From the NCBI GenBank assembly GCA_002780795.1, contig PEUF01000030.1, forward strand, positions 1 through 64,000: a DNA stretch of 64,000 nt. The letters are read 5' to 3'. Position 1 is the first letter of the stretch. The number at the start of each line of letters is the position of its first letter. Both the position numbers and the translations under genes were made by a program. This stretch comes from Candidatus Roizmanbacteria bacterium CG02_land_8_20_14_3_00_36_15 (lineage in GTDB: Bacteria; Patescibacteriota; Microgenomatia; UBA1406; GWC2-37-13). The notes under the pieces are model-generated. The model saw only the letters and a list, made by a program, of their open reading frames with translations, searched no databases and was not told the DNA's origin. This document shows positions 7,290 through 17,987 of the stretch, in pieces.

Positions 7290-7751
7290 TTATAATTCGT
7301 ACTCTTTCTCAAACACTTTTTCTCCATAGCCTCCATTAAATTTAAGGCTTAGCTTTATCTTTCCAACCACCTTATGATAAACACAGGTTCCGGACGAACA
7401 GGTCCCTAAAGTAATCTTTTTTTCAAAAGCTGAGTCTCCTTCGGCTAAATTAATTGTTCCAATTACTCCTTGGAGACCTTGTTGAGCTGTATTGTAGGAA
7501 AGCTCATAATCAACTGTCTGCGTCTGCGAAGGAATGTTCCCCGCGCTTAAAATAACTTCTTTCCCGTTAGCAGCATCTCTAAGATCTATCTTTACTGACG
7601 AACTTACCGTTGGGATAACTTCTTCGGTGGGAAAGGGTTTTGTCGTCTCAACCTTTGTCTGTTTATTTTTCCCAAATAACCAATAACCAGCAATTATTAA
7701 TAAAATAACAACACCAACAATAATTAAATACTTTTTGTGTCCGGGCTTCAT
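7290..7751 (-). CDS. Membrane-anchored secreted protein, unknown
   Basis: A 153-aa protein with an N-terminal membrane helix (about residues 8-26), a short Pro/Thr linker and a beta-rich domain (about 50-153) holding two cysteines close together (TCSSGTC), which could form a disulfide outside the cell. It overlaps the end of glyS by 4 nt and is presumably co-transcribed with it. I do not recognise the family. Confidence 0.6.
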   Translation of the reverse strand: MKPGHKKYLIIVGVVILLIIAGYWLFGKNKQTKVETTKPFPTEEVIPTVSSSVKIDLRDAANGKEVILSAGNIPSQTQTVDYELSYNTAQQGLQGVIGTINLAEGDSAFEKKITLGTCSSGTCVYHKVVGKIKLSLKFNGGYGEKVFEKEYEL

Positions 7752-9109
7752 ACTTTAAATAAATTTCTAATGAACTTAACTAAATCGTTTATATTAACTC
7801 TATCTTGTTTCATGGTATCACGGTCTCTTACCGTCACCGTTTCATCCTCCAGTGTCTGATAATCAATTGTAACACAGAAAGGGGTACTGATTTCATCCTG
7901 CCTGCGATACATCTGACCAATATTGCCGCTATCGTCAAAATCGCAAACAAACACATCATTAATTAATTTGTAGATTAATCTTGCTTTTTCTTTTAGTTTT
8001 TCATCTTTTTGCAAGGGAAATATGGCAACTTTAATCGGCGAAATGCTTGGTTTAAATTTTAAAACTGCTCTTAATTTGTCATTAACCTTTTCTTCGCAAT
8101 AAGCATCTTCCAAAATCGCTAAAGTTAATCTTGATAGTCCAAAGGTTGGTTCAATCACATGGGGGATAAATTTTTCTCCGGTTTTAGGATCAATGTAATT
8201 TAGATCTTTTCCAGACTGTTTCATATGGTTTTTTAAATCGTAGTCTGTCCGATATGCCAAACCCCACATTTCTTTCCAGCCAAAGTCAAACTGATACTCA
8301 AGATCAACGGTTTTTTTTGAATAAAAAGAACGTTCAAAGTCTTCATGTTCGCGCCATCGCAATTTATTCTTATTAAATCCTAAATCCATAGCAAATTGCC
8401 ACATCTGGTCCTGCCAGTATTTAAAAGTTTTTTCCCATTCGCTTTCCTTAATAAAATATTCAAACTCCATTAAATCAAATTCAAGGGTCCTAAAAACCGA
8501 CTGTCCCATCGTAATTTCATTGCGAAAAGCTTTTCCCTGTGAGGCAATACCAAAAGGAATCAAAACTCGCATCGAGTTGAGGATATTTTTAAAATTTATG
8601 AATATTCCTTGAGCAAGTTCTCCTCGTAAATAAGCGGTAGATTTCTCTTCTTCGACAATACCAATGTGTGTTTCAAATAATAGATTAAATTTACGGACGT
8701 CAGTAAGCTCAGCCGATCCGCATTTTGGGCATTTTAAGCTATTTTCTTTAATGATTTTTGTTAATTCTTCGACTGGAAGACCTTCTGCTTTTTTACCTTT
8801 AAGTTTGTTTTCGATTAAATGATCGGCTCGAGTCCGATTATGACAGTTCTTACAATCAACTAAAGCATCATTGAAGCCCGTCACATGACCTGAGGCTTGC
8901 CAGACCTTTGGTGAAAGAATAGTTGAAGCGTCAAGACCAACCATATCGTGACGTTGAAGAACAAATCTTTTCCACCACAAATCTCTTAGATTATTTTTTA
9001 GCAATACTCCATAATGACCAAAGTCCCAAGTGTTTGCCAAACCTCCGTAAAGGTCCGAACTTGGATAAAAAAACCCCCGTCTTTTGGCCAAAGCAACGAT
9101 TTTATCCAT
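7748..9109 (-). CDS. glyQS: Glycyl-tRNA synthetase (alpha2 type)
   Basis: Class II aminoacyl-tRNA synthetase charging tRNA-Gly, 453 aa, of the homodimeric eukaryote/Gram-positive type rather than the alpha/beta tetramer. The start KRRGFFYPSSDLYGGLANTWDFGHYG is diagnostic. A zinc-ribbon-like insertion has CxxC pairs (CKNC near residue 86, CPKC near 133). Motif 2 is around FRNEITMGQSVFRTLEFDLMEFEYF, motif 3 around EPTFGLSRL, and an anticodon-binding domain (about 355-453) follows. The next gene overlaps by 4 nt. Upstream lies a long hairpin of reiterated words. Confidence 0.96.
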   Translation of the reverse strand: MDKIVALAKRRGFFYPSSDLYGGLANTWDFGHYGVLLKNNLRDLWWKRFVLQRHDMVGLDASTILSPKVWQASGHVTGFNDALVDCKNCHNRTRADHLIENKLKGKKAEGLPVEELTKIIKENSLKCPKCGSAELTDVRKFNLLFETHIGIVEEEKSTAYLRGELAQGIFINFKNILNSMRVLIPFGIASQGKAFRNEITMGQSVFRTLEFDLMEFEYFIKESEWEKTFKYWQDQMWQFAMDLGFNKNKLRWREHEDFERSFYSKKTVDLEYQFDFGWKEMWGLAYRTDYDLKNHMKQSGKDLNYIDPKTGEKFIPHVIEPTFGLSRLTLAILEDAYCEEKVNDKLRAVLKFKPSISPIKVAIFPLQKDEKLKEKARLIYKLINDVFVCDFDDSGNIGQMYRRQDEISTPFCVTIDYQTLEDETVTVRDRDTMKQDRVNINDLVKFIRNLFKV

Positions 9110-9112
9110 ACG

Positions 9113-9238
9113 ATTAAAATTCTAAATCCTAATCTCTAAATCACAAATAAATTTTAAATTCTAAATCCTAAACGTTTAGAATTTAAAAAATTAGAATTTT
9201 GAATTTGTTTGGAGCTTAGAATTTAGAATTTATTTTCA
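9113..9238. repeat. Word-reiterated inverted repeat
   Basis: Left arm of repeated words such as AAATTCTAAATCCTAA, right arm of their complements (TTTAGAATTTAGAATTT), separated around CCTAAACGTTTAG. The element fills the 129-nt spacer between recO and glyS and can fold into one long imperfect hairpin. Confidence 0.7.
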
Positions 9239-9763
9239 TTATATAATAAAGAGGGGGAGTTTTTCATTGATCAATTCCTCGATAAATAAACGGAGTTCGT
9301 GGGAAGATTTATCCTCTTTAGAATAACCTAAATCCTGTATCAATTTATTGATATATTTATATAATTTAAGCTCTTTAAAATTTGCATCCTCTGACAACTC
9401 GATCAAAAATTTCTTTAACAAATTATAGGCTGAGGTGTCTCTTTGATTCTCGGCCAACAAACGCTCTAAGATAAAAATAAAATAGTAGAGATACTGGGAT
9501 TTAACTTGGCTGTCCTTAATTTTGGAAAACCCGGAGATGAGTTGCGTTTCCTGTAAGTAATAACGGTCGTCTTTTCTGTAAATTATCGTTTCTATTAAGT
9601 TACCCGTTTGAAGATGGCTAATCCGCCTACTGGTGATTTTCTTCGCTCCCTTGGCAAAAGTTTTTATCTTTCCTTCTTCTTGAGAAAAAATTGTTACCAA
9701 ATAGTCCTTATTTAATAAACTTTTTTTCTTTAATATAACTGCTTCTGTCTTTAGCGTTTTCAT
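9239..9763 (-). CDS. recO: DNA repair protein RecO
   Basis: A 174-aa RecO, the mediator that helps load RecA on SSB-coated DNA and anneals strands in the RecFOR pathway. The N-terminal OB-fold is clear (LKTEAVILKKKSLLNKDYLVTIFSQEEGKIKTFAKGAKK) and is followed by a helical domain. It is well short of the usual 230-250 aa and lacks the zinc-finger cysteines, so the C-terminal part is reduced. Its ATG overlaps the stop of the upstream peptidase gene by one base. Confidence 0.85.
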   Translation of the reverse strand: MKTLKTEAVILKKKSLLNKDYLVTIFSQEEGKIKTFAKGAKKITSRRISHLQTGNLIETIIYRKDDRYYLQETQLISGFSKIKDSQVKSQYLYYFIFILERLLAENQRDTSAYNLLKKFLIELSEDANFKELKLYKYINKLIQDLGYSKEDKSSHELRLFIEELINEKLPLFII

Positions 9764-10833
9764 TATAGAGATAGAAGAAACTGCCTTAAGATTTGATAGT
9801 AATCTTTAAGGCTTTGGGTGTCTATCCATTCGTTGTCAGAGTGTAATCCTTGCCCTTTAGGCCCGAACTCTATGCCGGCGATACCAACCCGCGAATAATG
9901 GCGAGCATCTGAAGCACCATAACCTTTAATTGTGGTTATTTTTTTACCTAAAATTTCTTGACCGACCTCTTGTAATTTCAAAATGTGTTGGTTATTTTTA
10001 GGAGAGAAATGAATCGGTTCATTTTCCAAAAACTCAATCTTTGCTTCGTCACTAATTAAATTTTTAATCTTTTTTTCAATAGTTTCGGTGTCAGCAGAAA
10101 TGTAGCGGACATCAAATAAGGCCTCAGCGGAGTCGGGAACTTTGTTTGCTGTCATATTGGGAGTCGATATTTTGGCTAGGTTGACTGTCGTTTTCCAAAC
10201 CGGCCTTTTAGGAACGGGAAAAGCTTTTTCGATTTTATCCAATATTTTTTTTAATCCCCATAAAGCATTTTTCCCCCGCCAGAGATAGGCACCGTGTGCC
10301 GCTTTGCCTTTGGTAATTATCTTTAACCAGATCACTCCTTTAGCTTCATTTTTTATTTTAAACTCGGTTGTTTCTCCGGTAATAAAGAAGTCAGCTTTCA
10401 CTCCTTTATTAATCTGGTAACGAACACCGTCATAACCGCCTATTTCCTCATCGGTTACTAGTTGTAAAGCTAAGGGGTAATTAACTTTATTAACAATTTC
10501 TTTAAATAAAAGAATAAGAACGGCACTGGCCGCTTTCATATCATCTGCTCCTCGTCCATAAAGTTTTCCGTTAACCTCTCTGGGATTAAACTGTTCCGGC
10601 CTTCCTGGGACCACATCTAAATGACCATTAAGAATTATTTTGAATTTTTTCGGCCGGGTTTTTCCCGCATAGATTAAGGCACTGGGAGACCCATTACTTT
10701 CAAATCTTTCAACGGTAAAACCTTCCAACTCCTCCAAAGCCACATTCAGCGCCTTTTTGATTTCCTTCGGACTGTTTTTGGTTGAAGGAATGGAGATTAG
10801 TTGTTTTGCTAACTTTAATATTTGATCGATCAT
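9763..10833 (-). CDS. M20-family metallopeptidase (ArgE/DapE-like)
   Basis: A 356-aa zinc hydrolase of the M20 family, which cleaves N-acyl amino acids or small peptides. Metal and catalytic sites are visible: GHLDVVPG (residues about 70-77), GRGADDM (about 94-100), the catalytic Glu in TDEEIGG (about 127-133), and a final metal His in GLHSDNEW near the C-terminus. The dimerisation lid lies between. The exact substrate cannot be told from sequence. It directly follows a broken enolase-superfamily gene resembling dipeptide epimerases, so a role in peptide scavenging or recycling is possible. Confidence 0.88.
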   Translation of the reverse strand: MIDQILKLAKQLISIPSTKNSPKEIKKALNVALEELEGFTVERFESNGSPSALIYAGKTRPKKFKIILNGHLDVVPGRPEQFNPREVNGKLYGRGADDMKAASAVLILLFKEIVNKVNYPLALQLVTDEEIGGYDGVRYQINKGVKADFFITGETTEFKIKNEAKGVIWLKIITKGKAAHGAYLWRGKNALWGLKKILDKIEKAFPVPKRPVWKTTVNLAKISTPNMTANKVPDSAEALFDVRYISADTETIEKKIKNLISDEAKIEFLENEPIHFSPKNNQHILKLQEVGQEILGKKITTIKGYGASDARHYSRVGIAGIEFGPKGQGLHSDNEWIDTQSLKDYYQILRQFLLSL

Positions 10834-10842
10834 TTGATTATT

Positions 10843-11331
10843 TTAGCAAAAAATTTTCTCAATCGTATACTTTTTAAATTTTTTAATACTTTCTTTGAGA
10901 TTTTTTCCCAAACCAATACTGACTACCACTGGAATTTTACAGCGAACGCCTCCCCACAATTTTTTTAACGGTTCCCCAGTCAATTGAGATTGGATGTGCC
11001 AAAAGGCCGACTCGATCGCTGTTTTGGCAAAATTATTTCCTCTAATATGACTAAATAATTTTTCTAAATCGTCAACATTGATAATTTTCTTATCTATAAC
11101 TAAGGGAATAAGGTAATTCTTCAATAGAATAATCATTGAGTTGTTAAACTCCGGTTCATAGACAGGTAGTCCTAAATTAGCTGACTCACCAAATCCAATT
11201 AAGCCGCTTTTATCGTAAAGCTTGACAAAAACAATTTCTCGATCCAATAAAGTGCCGAAACTGGTGCGAAATGGTGAAATTAATGGTAGTTTAATTTTAT
11301 ATATTTCTCCTTTTTTAATTTGCATAGTCAT
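10843..11331 (-). pseudogene. Truncated enolase-superfamily gene (MenC / dipeptide epimerase-like)
   Basis: A 162-aa product covering only the capping domain of the muconate-lactonizing subgroup (LPLISPFRTSFGTLLDREIVF, AKTAIESAFWHIQSQLTGEPLKKLWGG) and the first barrel strand (KIPVVVSIG). The catalytic Lys pair, metal-binding Asp/Glu and the rest of the barrel are missing; full-length relatives have about 350 aa. The frame stops 9 nt before the M20 gene, so the 3' part was deleted. An in-frame second ATG at 11325 is also possible. The start codon directly abuts the T-tract of a terminator. Confidence 0.75.
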
Positions 11332-11354
11332 AAAAAAATCCCGCTTGCGCGGGG
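11332..11354 (-). terminator. Intrinsic terminator abutting a start codon
   Basis: On the minus strand a CCCGC/GCGGG stem with a short GC-rich loop is followed by A and seven T. The T-tract ends exactly at the ATG at 11331. A G-run inside the upstream short ORF (11385-11392) can pair with the C-rich arm instead. Confidence 0.75.
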
Positions 11355-11375
11355 TTGATAAAATTTTAATTTACA

Positions 11376-11447
11376 TTAAAATATCCCCCCGCACTCCGAG
11401 GTTATTAAAAAAATAAGGTAACTAGATTCAGTTATTTTTGTTGTCAT
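11376..11447 (-). CDS. Short leader ORF (23 codons) before a terminator
   Basis: A 23-residue hydrophobic product running from MTTKITESSY to SECGGIF, stop at 11376. The Cys-Gly-Gly codons (TGCGGGGGG) form a G-rich arm that can pair with the C-rich arm of the terminator 20-30 nt further on, as in leader-peptide attenuators. A candidate extended -10 (TGTTATATA) lies about 20 nt before the ATG, and no Shine-Dalgarno sequence is seen. The 107 bases up to the NTPase stop hold only this weak promoter. A short ORF in AT-rich DNA can arise by chance; support comes from the same layout at 15829-16037. Confidence 0.4.
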   Translation of the reverse strand: MTTKITESSYLIFLITSECGGIF

Positions 11448-11554
11448 GGACGTTATAGATAGTTAAATATATAACACTAAAAATTTAATAAAACGGTATA
11501 ACAAATTCAAATCTATTTACAAAAGGTACTTTCTTTCAATTATTTTGTCAAAGT

Positions 11555-12535
11555 TTACATTTTACCATTTTTGTACCGTCTTAATTGGGTTAAAATTTTC
11601 CTTTTTTCTTCAAGTTGATAAACCAAATCTACCAATCTAAAAATCGATTGATTGTCATGATCGGTAATGATTTTATTAATTAAAACCGTCACTCTCTCTT
11701 TTTGTTCTCGAGCCAATTCTTTTAGTACTGGATATGTTTTTAAACCGGACAGCACGGCTTTAACAAAACTAATATCTCTTAATTGTTCAAACAGATATTC
11801 TTCGATTGTTTTATCTTGGGGTAATTTTAATAAATAATCAGTGACCGTTTCTGATAATCCATGATCTAGTAAAAACCTTCTTATTGAATCTTCTGACTGA
11901 AGATATAGTGGTATACGATACTTTGGGAATGAGGCTGTTATTTCAGACCATTGATTCACTAATTTAGGAGCTAGAAATTCCTGTTGCCATTCTTCATCGT
12001 GAAAAGTGATGGCTATCGGTATCGTCGTTAATTCCATGGCTCGCATAATCGGATCAATTCTTTCTTGTTGTTTCTCCTGACTAATAGATCTACCAACCGC
12101 TCTTGATTTTAGAAATAAATAGTCAAAACTATCATAAAAAACAGGAACTCCATTGTTTTCTGCTTGCCTTATAGTTTGCGCAACCTCTTCTCCAACAACT
12201 TCTTGATGATGACCGTCAATAAACACATATCCGATACCAGCTAGATCACACATGTCAGATAATCCAAATAAAATTGTTCCTTTACCGCTCTGGGGAGGAC
12301 CAACTACCATAATTCTTCCTTTAGGGAAGAAAGTTCTAGCGGCTTCAAGAGTTTCTTCCGGCCGCCAAACATGTTTCCCCTCTCTTAGCTGTTTAACTGT
12401 TATTTCACAAGATAATCTGCCAAAAACCTCAAGTGCAGGCATAGGATTACCATCAAAAAACTTTATGCCGTTCCAATTACCATTTCTACTATTTCTCGCT
12501 TCACCGTTCAAAGCAGGAACTTCTCCTAAAACCAT
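11555..12535 (-). CDS. P-loop NTPase, unknown role
   Basis: A 326-aa protein with a Walker A motif GPPQSGKGT (residues 79-87) and a Walker B-like strand PVFYDSFD (131-138), followed by SRAVGRSIS and a region about ITFHDEEW that may hold sensor residues. The C-terminal half is helical and charged. It could be an AAA-type or STAND-like ATPase, but the family is not recognised. It is the last gene of a three-gene minus-strand unit, 19 nt after the DUF1177 gene. No membrane segment is present, so it is probably cytosolic. Confidence 0.7.
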   Translation of the reverse strand: MVLGEVPALNGEARNSRNGNWNGIKFFDGNPMPALEVFGRLSCEITVKQLREGKHVWRPEETLEAARTFFPKGRIMVVGPPQSGKGTILFGLSDMCDLAGIGYVFIDGHHQEVVGEEVAQTIRQAENNGVPVFYDSFDYLFLKSRAVGRSISQEKQQERIDPIMRAMELTTIPIAITFHDEEWQQEFLAPKLVNQWSEITASFPKYRIPLYLQSEDSIRRFLLDHGLSETVTDYLLKLPQDKTIEEYLFEQLRDISFVKAVLSGLKTYPVLKELAREQKERVTVLINKIITDHDNQSIFRLVDLVYQLEEKRKILTQLRRYKNGKM

Positions 12536-12554
12536 AAATATTGAATCGTAACTG

Positions 12555-13484
12555 TTAACGAAGTTCCTGCAGTTTGCGCAGGCAGCCGTATTTTTTAATA
12601 ATTATCTGAAACTCTGTTTTGTCGTAGAACTGGCATTGACTCTTACCAAACCGTTGGGCCACTTCGATCAAAAACCTTCCTACCGAGTCTATCTGATTAA
12701 TATTAGTGATTCCAGTAGCACAACCGGCAACTGGCACTTCAGAGGTAATCGCGACACCAACTACTGGGGTTTTTGTCGCTGTCGCCGGTTGAAGAATACT
12801 ATTAAAGTGATAGATGCCGTTACCATATGGAGTAATATCCTGAGTTGTTATCGGAAAAGTAACTGATAGCTTCCCAGTCGTCTGTTCCATAATGGATAAC
12901 AGATCATCACTAATCCGTAAAATATATCCTTCTTTGATTGTAGGTGAAATGGCAAACCCATTATGATTTATAATTTTATTACCCCTAGATGTATCAACTG
13001 ATAAAATTGCTTCCATCTTTTCATCAACTTCATATTTATTCATCGTTGCTAAATCAACCGGTGATCCCATAAAAGGAACCGGATTGTGGGAGGTGGTAGG
13101 CGCGTTAGTACAAACATGAGTGGTTAAAATTATATCCCCCATCAACTGATCGCCTTGCTTTGCCATTTTCACTAACCGAAGAGCCGTTGACAATACGGCT
13201 AATGCCCCATCTCCATCGGAAACAAAGCCAACGATTTCTGGACGAGCTCCAACACCGCCCAGTCTGCCGATGATACCTAAAGTGGGCGCCCTCCCACCTT
13301 TTTGTTTTCCCTTTTTACCAGGGATAATTATCTTCAAAAACTCGGTTTCTCCCGTCTTTTCTCTTACCCTTTTGAGAGAAATTTTTGTCTTAGCATATTT
13401 CTTAAACAATTTAAAAATCAAACCACCTGGTTTACCAGGACGGTCGAGTAAATCATATATAGTTAAAATCTCTGAAACTATCAT
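12555..13484 (-). CDS. DUF1177-family protein
   Basis: A 309-aa protein matching, from memory, the DUF1177 family: IYDLLDRPG at the start, then KIIIPGKKGKQKGG, APTLGIIGRLGGVGARPE, IVGFVSDGDGALA, ILTTHVCTNAPTTSHNPVPFMGSPVD, ITPYGNGIYHFNSILQPATATKTPVVGVAI and VPVAGCATG. The many conserved His, Asp and Gly residues suggest a metal-dependent enzyme fold; the activity is not known to me. It is a cytosolic protein without a signal peptide. It sits 13 nt after the 755-aa gene and 19 nt before the NTPase, so the three are one operon. The family is unexpected in a reduced genome. Confidence 0.7.
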   Translation of the reverse strand: MIVSEILTIYDLLDRPGKPGGLIFKLFKKYAKTKISLKRVREKTGETEFLKIIIPGKKGKQKGGRAPTLGIIGRLGGVGARPEIVGFVSDGDGALAVLSTALRLVKMAKQGDQLMGDIILTTHVCTNAPTTSHNPVPFMGSPVDLATMNKYEVDEKMEAILSVDTSRGNKIINHNGFAISPTIKEGYILRISDDLLSIMEQTTGKLSVTFPITTQDITPYGNGIYHFNSILQPATATKTPVVGVAITSEVPVAGCATGITNINQIDSVGRFLIEVAQRFGKSQCQFYDKTEFQIIIKKYGCLRKLQELR

Positions 13485-13497
13485 ATTTAAAAATTAA

Positions 13498-15765
13498 CTA
13501 ATAACAGTTTAAAATTTGGCTAAAACGAAATTCTGTCGGATAGTCAATTTGTCCGTATAGATATTTTAAATAAGCCTCAAGCTTAGGATATATTTGCCCC
13601 ACTAAATTTTTCATTCGAGCTACCGCCTCATCTTTAGAAACTTCACTGTGTAAACGGCCTTCCTGGATTTTGACTGCTTCCTTTAAAAAAACAACAAAGT
13701 CCGAATCCCAAAGAAATTGCATGGCGTGATGGATAAAAGGATTATCAGTCAACGGAAAAGGATTATATTTTCCCAGTTCGGATAATTGATCTTTAATGTT
13801 TTGTAAACGTAACCACGATTGACTGTTTTCTTGCCAGATACGCTCCGTTTCTACCACTTCCGCTTTTGCCTTACTTTCTTCAAGTTCTTTTTCCTTAATT
13901 ATTTTTTTATTTTCTTCAATAACTTTTTCTGCCGTATCCACTAATTTATTAAGTTGAACTAAACCTTTACTTGAAATAATCGGTTGTTCTCCATGTTCTA
14001 CCGTTTCTAAAGCCTTGATCAAATCTGGTAATCCCTCTAAATCTGTCCTTTCTTCAACTGTTAATCTTGCTGCATTTTCCGCTTGTTTCCTCCGGGCGTT
14101 TTCTAGGGATTTGGATCGCTGATTTTTAATAATCCCAGCAATATCTTGAAGATCTTTTAGACTTACCAAGCCTTTTTCACCGCTAAGATATTTAACCAGT
14201 TCTAAAACGGTCTGTTGTATTTTTATATTGGCCTTGTATTTTTCTATCTTACTCCCTACTTTTCTCAAACTTTCTCTTGCTTGTTTAACTTTTTTTTCAA
14301 GAGGTAATAATTGCTCCTGTAATTGAATCATTTTTTGTGAGAGAACTTTTTTTTGACCGGTCGTATCCAAACTGTATTGCTGTAACGCTTTTAGATGAAT
14401 ATCAAGGTTAAACCGATTAAGTCTTGCCGGATTAGTCAGTTGTTGATTAACAGATTCTATGAATTCAGCCGTGCCCGGAACACCTTTAAATTTAAACCCG
14501 ACACTCCGCTCCTCATGTTGAACCTCGCTGTTAAATGTCGGCAGATCGGTAAAACCGGCAGCCACACTTCTCGTACTTTCATCCACGTTGGCTTGATAAA
14601 CCCATCTCATTATTACTATTCCCATCCGATATGCATAATCGTTATCAAACTTTTCCTTTTCTTCTTTGTCCATCTCCCTCAAACCCATAATTACCTCTTT
14701 TGGTAAATCCATTGATCCCCAACGTAGATGATCAATCTGTTTTCCTCTTACATGAAAATCTGAGGCTATTAACACTTTAATTGCCTTGGTTTCTATTTTG
14801 TTAAGTTTTCCTGATTTCAATCTTCGTGACAGAACTTGTTTCAAAAGCTCTAGTTGGTTTGGTCCTACGTAGGTATAAATTACTTCAAGAACGCGATGGT
14901 TATTTGAATCAAGCCCAAGTTGACTCAACCACTGTTCAACGGCAGAACTTAAAGCAAATTCATCAAAGTTAACAGCGAGAATAGCCGATTCTGGGTTTAT
15001 TAATAACGATCGCCTCTGGACGGCTTCGTGGATACGCTGATAGGCTTCATCAACAAGAGTCACTGCTTCGTCGTGAGGTATACCGTATTCCATCTCAATT
15101 CTTTCTCGCCACATATCAGTCTCCCAATAATGAACTCCATAATTGTATCCTCCAAGCATTGCTCCAGAAATATGCGTGATTGTAGGTGCGGCCAATATCA
15201 CTTTTCTTACAAAATCTTGCATTAAACTTTGGTATCGTTTTATTTCTTGTTCTAATTCGTGCCGATCAATTTCATTGACTCCGGTTTCGATTCTTTGTCT
15301 TAAACCAACAATGTAAGCTTTTATCTCATTAACAGTATGAACGCTGTTTGTCTCTAACGCACATGAACCACCAACAGATGCAACTAATAATCCAGGTATT
15401 AGTAATTGGGGAGGAACTGACCTTAATCTAACATAGTCGAGTGTCCCTAAATTATCAACAAAATTTTGAAACTCTCTTTCTGTAAGGTTCCGCGGATCGC
15501 GTGCTAACGGTGAGAATTGAGTATAGCCACTGACCCAAGCATTCTGGTCAATATCGTTAAAACGCCTATCGTAGCGGGTAGATCGATAAAAATCATCTGT
15601 GAACTCCCCTGGGCCAGCTTCAACCCAAATTTTTCCTAAGACATCAGTTACAAAATTTATATATCTTTTTAACCGACTCTCACCCTCAATTATTCCTTCT
15701 AGGGGGTCAAGAATGTACTTTGGTCTTGGTAAAGATTCACTTGTCATCAATAGTTTATTTTCCAT
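13498..15765 (-). CDS. Large coiled-coil protein, unknown
   Basis: A 755-aa cytosolic protein with no recognised domain. The N-terminal 440 residues look globular, with conserved-looking patches such as AAPTITHISGAMLGGYNYGVHYWETDMW. Residues about 460-690 are rich in Lys, Glu and Gln with heptad periodicity, typical of long coiled coils. The last 60 residues are again globular. It is the first gene of the operon with DUF1177 and the P-loop NTPase, so a complex with the NTPase is possible. Upstream are two short ORFs each followed by a terminator, so expression is probably controlled by read-through. Confidence 0.7.
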   Translation of the reverse strand: MENKLLMTSESLPRPKYILDPLEGIIEGESRLKRYINFVTDVLGKIWVEAGPGEFTDDFYRSTRYDRRFNDIDQNAWVSGYTQFSPLARDPRNLTEREFQNFVDNLGTLDYVRLRSVPPQLLIPGLLVASVGGSCALETNSVHTVNEIKAYIVGLRQRIETGVNEIDRHELEQEIKRYQSLMQDFVRKVILAAPTITHISGAMLGGYNYGVHYWETDMWRERIEMEYGIPHDEAVTLVDEAYQRIHEAVQRRSLLINPESAILAVNFDEFALSSAVEQWLSQLGLDSNNHRVLEVIYTYVGPNQLELLKQVLSRRLKSGKLNKIETKAIKVLIASDFHVRGKQIDHLRWGSMDLPKEVIMGLREMDKEEKEKFDNDYAYRMGIVIMRWVYQANVDESTRSVAAGFTDLPTFNSEVQHEERSVGFKFKGVPGTAEFIESVNQQLTNPARLNRFNLDIHLKALQQYSLDTTGQKKVLSQKMIQLQEQLLPLEKKVKQARESLRKVGSKIEKYKANIKIQQTVLELVKYLSGEKGLVSLKDLQDIAGIIKNQRSKSLENARRKQAENAARLTVEERTDLEGLPDLIKALETVEHGEQPIISSKGLVQLNKLVDTAEKVIEENKKIIKEKELEESKAKAEVVETERIWQENSQSWLRLQNIKDQLSELGKYNPFPLTDNPFIHHAMQFLWDSDFVVFLKEAVKIQEGRLHSEVSKDEAVARMKNLVGQIYPKLEAYLKYLYGQIDYPTEFRFSQILNCY

Positions 15766-15782
15766 GAATTTTTTTTACTATT

Positions 15783-15808
15783 AAAAAACCCCGCGCTTGG
15801 CGGGGTTT
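15783..15808 (-). terminator. Second intrinsic terminator of the operon leader
   Basis: A 9-bp stem AAACCCCGC/GCGGGGTTT (15786-15808) with a 5-nt loop is followed by further T on the minus strand, 17 nt before the ATG of the 755-aa gene. The segment TTGGCGGG inside the preceding short ORF (15836-15843) can pair over 8 bp with the C-rich arm and block it. Confidence 0.8.
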
Positions 15809-15828
15809 AGTTAATTTTTAATAATTAT

Positions 15829-15894
15829 TTAATTACCCGCCAAATACGAGTAAAACATGACAAGAATAAAAATGAATAAAACAGATTGTTCCAT
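15829..15894 (-). CDS. Short hydrophobic leader ORF 2 (21 codons)
   Basis: A 21-residue product starting MEQSVLF, strongly hydrophobic in the middle (FIFILVMFY) and ending YLAGN. Its ATG lies 5 nt after the T-tract of the first terminator and its stop 20 nt before the second. The Ala-Gly codons (GCGGGT) form the competing arm for that terminator. It could be a leader peptide or a small membrane peptide. Confidence is limited by length. Confidence 0.42.
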   Translation of the reverse strand: MEQSVLFIFILVMFYSYLAGN

Positions 15895-15899
15895 ATAAC

Positions 15900-15924
15900 A
15901 AAAAAGCCCGCCTCTTTGGGCGGG
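15900..15924 (-). terminator. First intrinsic terminator of the operon leader
   Basis: A CCCGCC/GGCGGG stem (arms 15919-15924 and 15907-15912) is followed by C and six T on the minus strand. A perfect 7-nt competitor GGGCGGG (15970-15976) lies inside the upstream short ORF. Confidence 0.8.
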
Positions 15925-15947
15925 GTCTTTATTAAATTTTTTAGGTT

Positions 15948-16037
15948 TTATCTTGTTATTAAAAACCTTCCCGCCCTATAAGGCATCATAATAAGGACGA
16001 AAAAGCAAATAATTGACGATAAAACCTTTTTTATCAT
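15948..16037 (-). CDS. Short leader ORF 1 (29 codons)
   Basis: A 29-residue product with a basic start (MIKKVLSS), a hydrophobic core (IICFFVLIMM) and the tail PYRAGRFLITR, so it resembles a signal or membrane peptide. It begins 11 nt after a good -10 box and ends about 24 nt before terminator 1. The Arg-Ala-Gly codons (AGGGCGGGA) hold the arm that can pair with the terminator. RAG-containing tails also occur in ribosome arrest peptides such as SecM, but the comparison is only suggestive. Confidence 0.45.
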   Translation of the reverse strand: MIKKVLSSIICFFVLIMMPYRAGRFLITR

Positions 16038-16048
16038 GTTAATTAAAT

Positions 16049-16076
16049 ATTTTACCAAACAATTTTAATTATGCAA
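16049..16076 (-). promoter_or_regulatory. Promoter of the 755-aa / DUF1177 / NTPase operon
   Basis: On the minus strand TTGCAT (16071-16076), a 16-nt spacer and TAAAAT (16049-16054). A start near 16042 would place short ORF 1 almost at the 5' end of the RNA and give a leader of about 275 nt. Confidence 0.6.
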
Positions 16077-16096
16077 GTGATCTTTTGACTTTACGT

Positions 16097-16124
16097 CGCC
16101 CAAAGGGCGATCGCCCTCTGGGCG
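16097..16124. repeat. 28-bp double-hairpin element, copy 1
   Basis: Two adjacent hairpins, CGCCC-AAA-GGGCG and CGCCC-TCT-GGGCG, joined so that GGGCGATCGCCC is a perfect 12-bp palindrome. It lies 22 bp downstream of the DUF4012 stop. Copies with 25/28 and lower identity lie inside rplE (33788) and rplV (36999). There is no T-tract, so it is not an ordinary terminator. Confidence 0.8.
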
Positions 16125-16145
16125 AGACTTTATGGACTTTATAAA

Positions 16146-17987
16146 CTACCTAATCTCTTTATCAACATCTAATCCCCCACTATATAGTTTCCTCCCATTG
16201 ATCTCCACCACCAACTTGTTCTCGTAAGTTCCCGGTTGTTTTTGGATTAATAATTGGTTCACATCAACTTTCTCGGGTAGTGAATAGCGAATAATTATCT
16301 TGGCCATACCCTGAGGAACAACGGTTAAAAATCCTTCAAAAACAGTCTTTCCCAATGAGTCATATGTCTGCACTTTTTTACTTGAGCCTTCAAACCCGAT
16401 CAACTTTGATCCTTGTGGAACATAGATCCTAAGCCAATCTCGTAAAGTGGCGTTGAGACATAGACCTCCCCGTTCAAGACTACAGTCTGAGTGAGGATAT
16501 GGGTTACGATAGTCTATGGTTATCTCCCTGACTATCTTGCTTCCTTCTTTTTTAGTCACTGAACTGATTGACTCAGAAACAAACATATTTGATTTGGCGC
16601 CGGCAAAATTGACATCATTAACATGAAGATAATCGCCAGAGTAATTTTTTATCTTTCCGCTAAAATTTAACTTTTCGATTGCCTGTTGTAAATCTTGATC
16701 AACTAAATAAATTAGAATGTGTTTTTCCTGAAGATTTTTAAACATTGTTTGACTTAATGTTCCCCAGTATTTTGACGGCGAAAAACCAATGGCTTTATAA
16801 AATAAAGCATACATTAGATCTCCCAGTATCCCCTTCCTATTTTCTTTAACATAGTTTACTGGTCGGTCAACCATGTCAAAAAGCTGGTAAAGAACTTGGG
16901 GGCAATCACAACGACTGTCTTTATTCGCGGAAAAACGAACTCCTGATGCCTCAGTGTCACCAAATATAGTTAACATGTCCACCAAAACCTTCGAATCAAG
17001 AGCAATAATACCGTCATAATCAACTCTGGCGCTACTTTTTTTATAAAGAGAGTTAAAAAGTTCTATTGATTTTGCAAAATCGGGCGAAAGATTACTGTCG
17101 CGGATATAAAATTGGCTTACTCCTAAATGATAGGTAAGAATTTCTGTTGGCGCCTCGGGACGGACGGTAATTGAATTATCTAGTGAGTAGATATCGTCAG
17201 ATTGAGTTATTTTCATCTTACCGTCTTTAATGGTAAACACGGCATAGGCAGTAAGAAAACCCCCGCTAGCTCTCAACTCTTTATCATTCTGAAAAAGGAT
17301 AAGATAGGTTCGTTCCCCGTCTTTACCTAAAATATCGGGCAACCTTTTTAACAAAGGTTTAGCATCAACAAATAAGGATGCCAGACCCTTGAATTGCTCC
17401 TTTAAATTTATTATCCGTTTTCTGATCTCTGTTTTACCTAAATTTTGAGGGTAACGATCTGAGTTAATTTTCCCAATTCTCGTCTCCGCCTGATTTATAT
17501 CTTCAGAGATAGGATCGATTTTTGTCAATACCTTATCCAGGGTTAGCAGTGCGGTCTGTAACCTATCTTCAGCTGACTTTTCCACAAAAGAAACCTCACC
17601 TTTTTTAAAACCGATTAAATCGGCGTAGGGAGTAATTGCCTCGATTGTTTCTTTACCTGCCTTAACGAGATAACTACCCGCTTCAACCCCATTTTTAAAA
17701 TCGGCAAAGTACGGTATAAACGACAGCCAATAGATAGATTTTGCCTGTTTTTGAAAATCTTGATACTGAGAAGAAAAAACATCAAATTGTTTATTTAATA
17801 AATCAATGTCGTTTTGAGAGAAGATCGTTTTCAACTCTTTGGCAGTAGAATAAAGTTGCCGCGCCCTTGTTTCAATCGCCCGCAGCGGTCGGTAAATAAA
17901 CAGGTATAAAAATAGAAAAAAAATAAAAAAGACAATAATTATTTTGCTCAAATTTTTTTTTCTTCGATAAGATTGTCTCAATAGCAT
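16146..17987 (-). CDS. DUF4012-domain membrane protein
   Basis: A 613-aa protein with an N-terminal membrane helix (about 17-36), a helical region (about 40-200) and a large outside domain typical of DUF4012 proteins, seen in YLILFQNDKELRASGGFLTAYAVFTIKDG and the later beta-rich C-terminus (REITIDYRNPYPHSDC). DUF4012 proteins are common in CPR genomes; their function is not established, but they are often found with glycan genes, as here. It is last in the unit with the phosphosugar transferase and ManC. The start MLLRQSYRRKK gives a positive-inside anchor. Confidence 0.88.
   Translation of the reverse strand: MLLRQSYRRKKNLSKIIIVFFIFFLFLYLFIYRPLRAIETRARQLYSTAKELKTIFSQNDIDLLNKQFDVFSSQYQDFQKQAKSIYWLSFIPYFADFKNGVEAGSYLVKAGKETIEAITPYADLIGFKKGEVSFVEKSAEDRLQTALLTLDKVLTKIDPISEDINQAETRIGKINSDRYPQNLGKTEIRKRIINLKEQFKGLASLFVDAKPLLKRLPDILGKDGERTYLILFQNDKELRASGGFLTAYAVFTIKDGKMKITQSDDIYSLDNSITVRPEAPTEILTYHLGVSQFYIRDSNLSPDFAKSIELFNSLYKKSSARVDYDGIIALDSKVLVDMLTIFGDTEASGVRFSANKDSRCDCPQVLYQLFDMVDRPVNYVKENRKGILGDLMYALFYKAIGFSPSKYWGTLSQTMFKNLQEKHILIYLVDQDLQQAIEKLNFSGKIKNYSGDYLHVNDVNFAGAKSNMFVSESISSVTKKEGSKIVREITIDYRNPYPHSDCSLERGGLCLNATLRDWLRIYVPQGSKLIGFEGSSKKVQTYDSLGKTVFEGFLTVVPQGMAKIIIRYSLPEKVDVNQLLIQKQPGTYENKLVVEINGRKLYSGGLDVDKEIR

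Follow-up and report, generated by a model that had tools for sequence, protein, structure and literature searches.

Two serial short-ORF and terminator units ahead of an orphan-protein operon are probably transcription attenuators of the branched-chain amino-acid type

In the window (the whole stretch of 64,000 nucleotides analysed here, from a Candidatus Roizmanbacteria genome), an operon that begins with the gene of an orphan protein is preceded by two short ORFs, each followed by a terminator. What do these two units do, and to which signal would they respond? Our analysis indicates that the region very probably holds two ribosome-mediated transcription attenuators in tandem, both of the branched-chain type (Leu/Ile/Val, perhaps Phe). 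The first-pass annotation had listed a promoter, a 29-codon ORF1, a terminator, a 21-codon ORF2, a second terminator and then the operon, and all of these were present on the minus strand. The features of the leader region are as follows.

16049..16076, minus strand: promoter TTGCAT-16-TAAAAT (TTGCAT at 16076-16071, spacer of 16 nt, TAAAAT at 16054-16049)
15948..16037, minus strand: leader ORF1, MIKKVLSSIICFFVLIMMPYRAGRFLITR, 29 codons, a member of the KVLS-type leader family
16018..16027, minus strand: 5′ arm of the P1 hairpin base, AGGTTTTATC, within ORF1; covarying helix
15943..15952, minus strand: 3′ arm of the P1 hairpin base, GATAAAACCT, pairing with AGGTTTTATC; covarying helix
15970..15976, minus strand: antiterminator strand of unit 1, GGGCGGG, in the G-rich end of ORF1
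15900..15924, minus strand: terminator 1 (CCCGCC-CAAAGA-GGCGGG, C, TTTTTT), with the stem at 15924-15907 and then the T-run
15829..15894, minus strand: leader ORF2, MEQSVLFIFILVMFYSYLAGN, 21 codons
15836..15843, minus strand: antiterminator strand of unit 2, TTGGCGGG, in the G-rich end of ORF2
15783..15808, minus strand: terminator 2 (AAACCCCGC-CAAGC-GCGGGGTTT and a T-run), with the stem at 15808-15786

The exact complementarity annotated earlier between the G-rich end of each ORF and the arm of the terminator that follows was confirmed: GGGCGGG of ORF1 can pair over 7 nt with CCCGCCC in terminator 1, and TTGGCGGG of ORF2 over 8 nt with CCCGCCAA in terminator 2. The ATG of the first gene of the operon lies at 15765, downstream of terminator 2. 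Only 11 nt separate the end of the −10 box from the ATG of ORF1, which predicts a 5′ UTR of a few nucleotides and a near-leaderless start; this distance is 8–15 nt in most promoter-assigned units of the leader family. ORF2 is similar to a leader of genome G029, MSQSVLFIIILLFIRILSGGRMI. The expected number of terminators preceded by a complementary arm of at least 7 nt is about 0.1 per strand of the window, and a search for this arrangement recovered unit 1; with a short ORF required in addition, both units were recovered. About 7 units of this ORF, arm and terminator layout were found among the 228 terminators of the roughly 977 kb scanned in the 1,065-kb genome.

Between the DUF4012 gene and the promoter (16096-16125) there is also a palindromic, REP-like repeat, CGCCCAGAGGGCGATCGCCCTTTGGGCGAC, which includes GCGATCGC and has at least 8 other near-identical copies elsewhere in the genome.

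Our analysis revealed a second helix that was absent from the first-pass annotation. This long hairpin, P1 (base AGGTTTTATC/GATAAAACCT), is formed by a segment near the ORF start and a segment just past the ORF, and it encloses most of the ORF together with the G-rich strand. P1, the antiterminator and the terminator are the 1:2, 2:3 and 3:4 arrangement of a classical attenuator. A short ORF lies between promoter and terminator, its frame open in all 34 units; an intrinsic terminator stands ahead of the first structural gene, and a complementary antiterminator strand lies at the ORF end. A pause hairpin sequestering that strand is found in the family and in window unit 1, and weakly in unit 2.

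A covariance model of P1 (R1) was built from an alignment of four units, used solely for this purpose, in which one nucleotide was removed from the unit of genome G053 to keep register; MAFFT alignments had put the 3′ arm of P1 at least one column off. R1 matched 30 of the 72 genomes of the taxonomic family and, in a sample of 374 genomes from across the class, only 2 outside the family. It recovered window unit 1 (G000u1, E=0.001) and units of G032 and G011, none of which was used to build it. Among 27 aligned units, 17 of the 20 P1 pairs had changes on both sides and 89.6% of the cells were paired; double-change cells numbered 86, against 27.4 in shuffles (reached in 0 of 500) and 10–21 on sliding. 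These counts are inflated and overstate independence, because related sequences were aligned so as to fit the structure, but the contrast is still very large. Relative to dinucleotide shuffles, P1 was stable at z<−2 in 32 of 34 units (median −4.6), including −3.9 for window unit 1 and a weaker −2.1 for unit 2. The match between G-arm and C-arm averaged 7.1 nt within a unit and 6.2 nt with swapped partners (0/5000 permutations). A DNA search with the G032 leader gave mostly terminators, with two true units among the matches. The first-pass annotation had proposed comparing the leader across relatives, looking there for compensatory changes and searching with a covariance model. In this comparison the ORF and stem proved to be conserved, the compensatory changes were found in P1, and the model search is that of R1.

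The codons of the leaders point to the signal. Leu, Ile and Val make up 51% of leader codons from the fifth on, compared with 26% in the long ORFs of the window genome, while Lys, Asn, Asp and Glu together account for 5% against a background of 25%. Within the stall windows (codons 5–14), Leu occurs in 34, Ile in 33, Val in 31 and Phe in 27 of the 34 units. T at codon position 2 of the leader ORFs reaches 63%, versus 27% and 43%. Judged from the sequences, this concentration at position 2 is a coding signal; the T-rich codons partly serve the hairpin, so that the hydrophobicity of the leaders has a structural component. The same element precedes ilvE-ilvB (IlvE, then acetolactate synthase) in G003, G004, G030, G034, G045 and G055, ilvB (acetolactate synthase) in G017 and leuA (2-isopropylmalate synthase) in G103. 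A cognate ilv/leu operon therefore lies downstream in eight relatives; the window's own operon is not ilv/leu. Since the leader codons are rich in Leu, Ile and Val and homologs precede ilv/leu genes, the most likely signal for the window leader is the supply of Leu, Ile and Val, which would make it a branched-chain amino-acid attenuator. Phe is perhaps sensed too, and with Phe this common the exact amino acid is not pinned down.

A leader of the same type was also observed ahead of pyruvate kinase in G046 (L120), with an acetolactate-synthase-like ORF two genes on (L210).

Elsewhere in the window genome, other attenuator-like leaders have codons that fit their downstream genes. Two FYFYFY leaders look like textbook Phe/Tyr attenuators: MGIKSKSISFYFYFYPE (L088:1023-1136) ahead of ADTH synthase and then of ORFs that resemble DHQ synthase II and aspartokinase, and MKRILVLNFYFYFYPI (L152:9067-9177) ahead of DAHP synthase. 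An SSS leader, MNPRVKILNNYSPQSSSGLYLAGRLTRW (L153:4986-5110), stands ahead of a SerB-like gene, a phosphoserine phosphatase by motif that has no NCBIfam match at 1e-20. An HH leader, MDFIDFTNFLTTSFHHSPPRAG (L091:4711-4826), stands ahead of hutH, so that here an attenuator-like leader precedes a catabolic gene, that of histidine ammonia-lyase.

Could the peptides rather than the codons be the sensor? They might be arrest peptides, whose nascent chain stalls the ribosome on an antibiotic, a metabolite or a membrane-insertion state, with the RNA switch reading the stall. The leader peptides are short and hydrophobic like Erm-type leaders, and their N-terminal KVLS/QSVLF motif recurs. However, the conserved KVLS codons are the base of P1, which covaries, and the element also stands ahead of ilv/leu biosynthesis genes, where a sensor of Leu/Ile/Val codons would be expected. 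The RAG tail of ORF1 had been taken earlier as a hint of arrest peptides, and this did not hold, as the RAG/GGR tails are the antiterminator arm read in frame, and in many units this arm lies beyond the stop codon. The Tyr-x-Ala-Gly ending noted as common to both ORFs is indeed present, but its source is likewise the G-rich arm read in frame (AGG GCG GGA etc.), and homolog leaders end in RAGE, GGRM, GGRR or AGS for the same reason. A conserved C-terminal arrest motif was rejected, because the C-termini vary. In Erm- and ABC-F-type antibiotic-responsive leaders a hydrophobic leader peptide, ribosome stalling and RNA refolding act together, a combination also predicted here; unlike them, the present leaders follow a logic of Leu/Ile/Val codons, homologs have ilv genes as targets, and no resistance gene was seen downstream. 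We regard arrest peptides as quite unlikely.

As branched-chain attenuators, the two units would work in the following way. Transcription would begin a few nucleotides ahead of the short hydrophobic ORF. Without translation, the ORF would fold with downstream sequence into P1, the G-rich strand would be locked in it, and the terminator would form. When charged Leu-, Ile- and Val-tRNAs are plentiful, the ribosome at the ORF end would cover the G-rich strand, and again the terminator would form. A ribosome stalled on the Leu/Ile/Val-rich codons would break P1 and free the G-rich strand, which would then pair with the C-rich arm, so that no terminator forms and the polymerase reads on. The two serial units would control the genes of the 755-aa protein, the DUF1177 protein and the putative NTPase, and then those of the MR_MLE and M20 proteins, all switched on by branched-chain shortage.

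Transcripts up to the C-rich arm were folded with a ribosome footprint set at each codon, assumed to span −18 to +15 nt relative to the first nucleotide of the A-site codon. The attenuator signature, in which the antiterminator is absent without a ribosome and at the stop and present at stall codons 8–12, was found in 27 of 34 units; among the controls it appeared in 2 of 510 shuffles and in 2 of 202 other genomic terminators. Window unit 1 showed the expected states without a ribosome and with a stalled one; its stop codon is 18 nt beyond the arm, which a ribosome at the stop therefore leaves uncovered. Unit 2, which has no strong P1, was predicted to antiterminate without a ribosome (P 0.83) and to terminate only when ORF2 is translated to its end. 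Because the units behave differently in folding, the pair may consist of two gates of different kinds, or unit 2 may be in decay. The absence of a strong P1 in unit 2 and the distance of the ORF1 stop from the arm make the window units less canonical than most family members. Footprint-constrained folding, ORF and stem conservation in relatives, compensatory changes and covarying arms together support the attenuator logic of the first-pass annotation.

These results also bear on two simpler readings. The first takes the hairpins as ordinary terminators of an upstream transcript beside spurious short ORFs, with no regulation, since terminators are abundant in this genome and their GC-rich arms are alike. 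But the footprint signature separates the family units from the other terminators, P1 covaries, the frames are open in every unit and biased in their codons, and the element is restricted phyletically. For the family, the comparative sequence data already contradict this reading, and we consider it very improbable. The second, that the terminated leader acts in trans as a small regulatory RNA, is given just as little weight. A stable hairpin with a terminator would yield an RNA of about 130 nt; the open frame, the cognate codons and the arm complementarity, however, are all accounted for in cis.

The genes that the branched-chain attenuators would control, and a third attenuator-like unit among them, are the following.

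13498..15765, minus strand: 755-aa orphan protein, first operon gene, restricted to the taxonomic family
12555..13484, minus strand: DUF1177 protein (PF06675, E 4e-129)
11555..12535, minus strand: 326-aa putative NTPase with a GPPQSGKGT P-loop-like motif and weak family matches only
11340..11447, minus strand: third attenuator-like unit, MTTKITESSYLIFLITSECGGIF, arm GCGGGG, terminator CCCGCGCAAGCGGG and T
10843..11331, minus strand: MR_MLE N-terminal domain protein, 162 aa, best NCBIfam match menC_lowGC_arch
9763..10833, minus strand: M20 (ArgE/DapE-type) deacylase/peptidase, a recurrent partner of the leader in relatives

The 755-aa protein has no Pfam or NCBIfam family. Its relatives occur in 15 of the 72 family genomes, distant members included, and in none outside the family in the 374-genome class sample. 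Structure prediction gave low confidence (pLDDT 46.9), and PDB sequence searches returned nothing meaningful. The third unit stands ahead of the MR_MLE gene within the same gene string, and its hairpin is not significant (z −0.8). The MR_MLE gene probably belongs to the same operon as the three genes before it. MR_MLE relatives in the same operon type are full-length at about 370 aa; the window version has the N-terminal domain alone and, judging by its sequence, may be truncated.

DUF1177 was found in exactly seven of the 72 family genomes, each with a close 755-aa ortholog, and all seven DUF1177-linked 755-aa operons, the window's included, carry the leader. It precedes the ortholog with the same layout in G011, G026, G032, G043, G053 and G016, lying 594 nt further upstream in G016. 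Acetolactate synthase had no match at E 1e-60 in the window genome (G000) and in four of the six others. Because of this, the leader in these five genomes would not serve that pathway; as the drafts are incomplete, this suggests auxotrophy but does not prove it.

The missing acetolactate synthase match, the lack of a strong P1 in unit 2 and the extension of the unit 1 ORF past the arm could also mean that the window units are relics, decaying and non-regulating copies of the family attenuator, or that unit 1 alone regulates. Against this, the arms and terminators of both units are intact, and the leader is kept in 7/7 DUF1177-linked 755-aa operons, including the five whose genomes gave no acetolactate synthase match. 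We judge the relic reading unlikely, and a functional tandem attenuator remains the preferred one.

At the non-ilv loci of the leader, the first gene mostly encodes a large protein (about 450–1160 aa) without a Pfam match, and by blastp these orphan proteins are mostly unrelated between loci. An M20 deacylase follows on the same strand within 10 kb at 17 of the 25 non-ilv loci, versus about 0.012 expected per locus, the loci being not all independent. Other partners are MR_MLE enzymes, ligases (GCS2-like, ATP-grasp and AMP-binding), an M15 peptidase and class-III aminotransferases. A locus in G018 (L199) reads DUF4012, leader, orphan, M20, RecO and GlyRS, the same frame as window positions 7748-17987 with different cargo; sequence resemblance gave the names of all G018 neighbours but M20. 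From the neighbouring genes, amino-acid salvage is a guess at the cargo function. Doubled leaders were seen, besides the window (G000), in G026 (L012) and G050 (L122) by inspection. In the G050 tandem, MKQKNNFILVIVTLL comes after MKNQVLSIIVLIAPFRRTSCNN.

Branched-chain amino acids are already known to act on genes through leader-peptide attenuation. In E. coli, ilvL and leuL are the ilv and leu leader-peptide attenuators. Tandem riboswitches and tandem T-boxes place two serial terminator units over one operon, as is the case here; unlike them, the proposed sensor of the present units is a ribosome translating a short ORF. Rfam gave no leader family at threshold on the leaders. Phe_leader (RF01859) scored 29.7 and 29.3 bits on the two window units, and Leu_leader (RF00512) was also below threshold; membership in either was rejected, the scores being far under the gathering values of 55 and 50. 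The window leaders also differ from Phe_leader in having no Phe run. Further branched-chain examples are the ilv leader attenuator of Listeria (PMC5864092), the leucine-rich attenuator peptide of S. aureus (PMC5794164) and the ilvB uORF of Corynebacterium (PMC10272879). The present leaders share with ilv/leu attenuators the Leu/Ile/Val-rich short ORF, the pause hairpin, the antiterminator/terminator alternatives and, in several relatives, the ilv/leu targets. They differ in their own sequence and structure, their near-leaderless start, their occasional doubling, and their position, which is mostly over orphan operons and often in genomes where acetolactate synthase had no match. In the open-access papers searched, no title or abstract described attenuation in Patescibacteria, CPR or Microgenomates. 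What is new is the element family, its use over orphan operons of genomes with no acetolactate synthase detected, the near-leaderless start and the doubling.

Gene regulation in such small-genome bacteria is almost unknown, and here a full testable circuit is legible from sequence, its signal named by the homologs in front of ilv and leu genes. We tentatively suggest, as a possibility with somewhat less than even chances, that the leader marks a branched-chain-starvation regulon of a small-genome family, many of whose members lack acetolactate synthase matches. The attenuator class would have moved from ilv/leu genes onto exchangeable cassettes of orphan protein and M20 (17/25 non-ilv loci), for salvage or supply of hydrophobic amino acids, for example from N-acyl or D-amino acids (MR_MLE and M20) or by ligase/aminotransferase routes. 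If this is true, the cassettes would make up a pathway of hydrophobic amino-acid salvage or supply that has so far gone unrecognised. The comparison also shows the attenuator retained or reused in genomes where the biosynthetic pathway was not found. The response to branched-chain shortage would give a first functional handle on DUF1177 and the 755-aa family as well as on about fifteen further orphan proteins, and the leader itself can be used to search for members of an uncharacterised amino-acid regulon.
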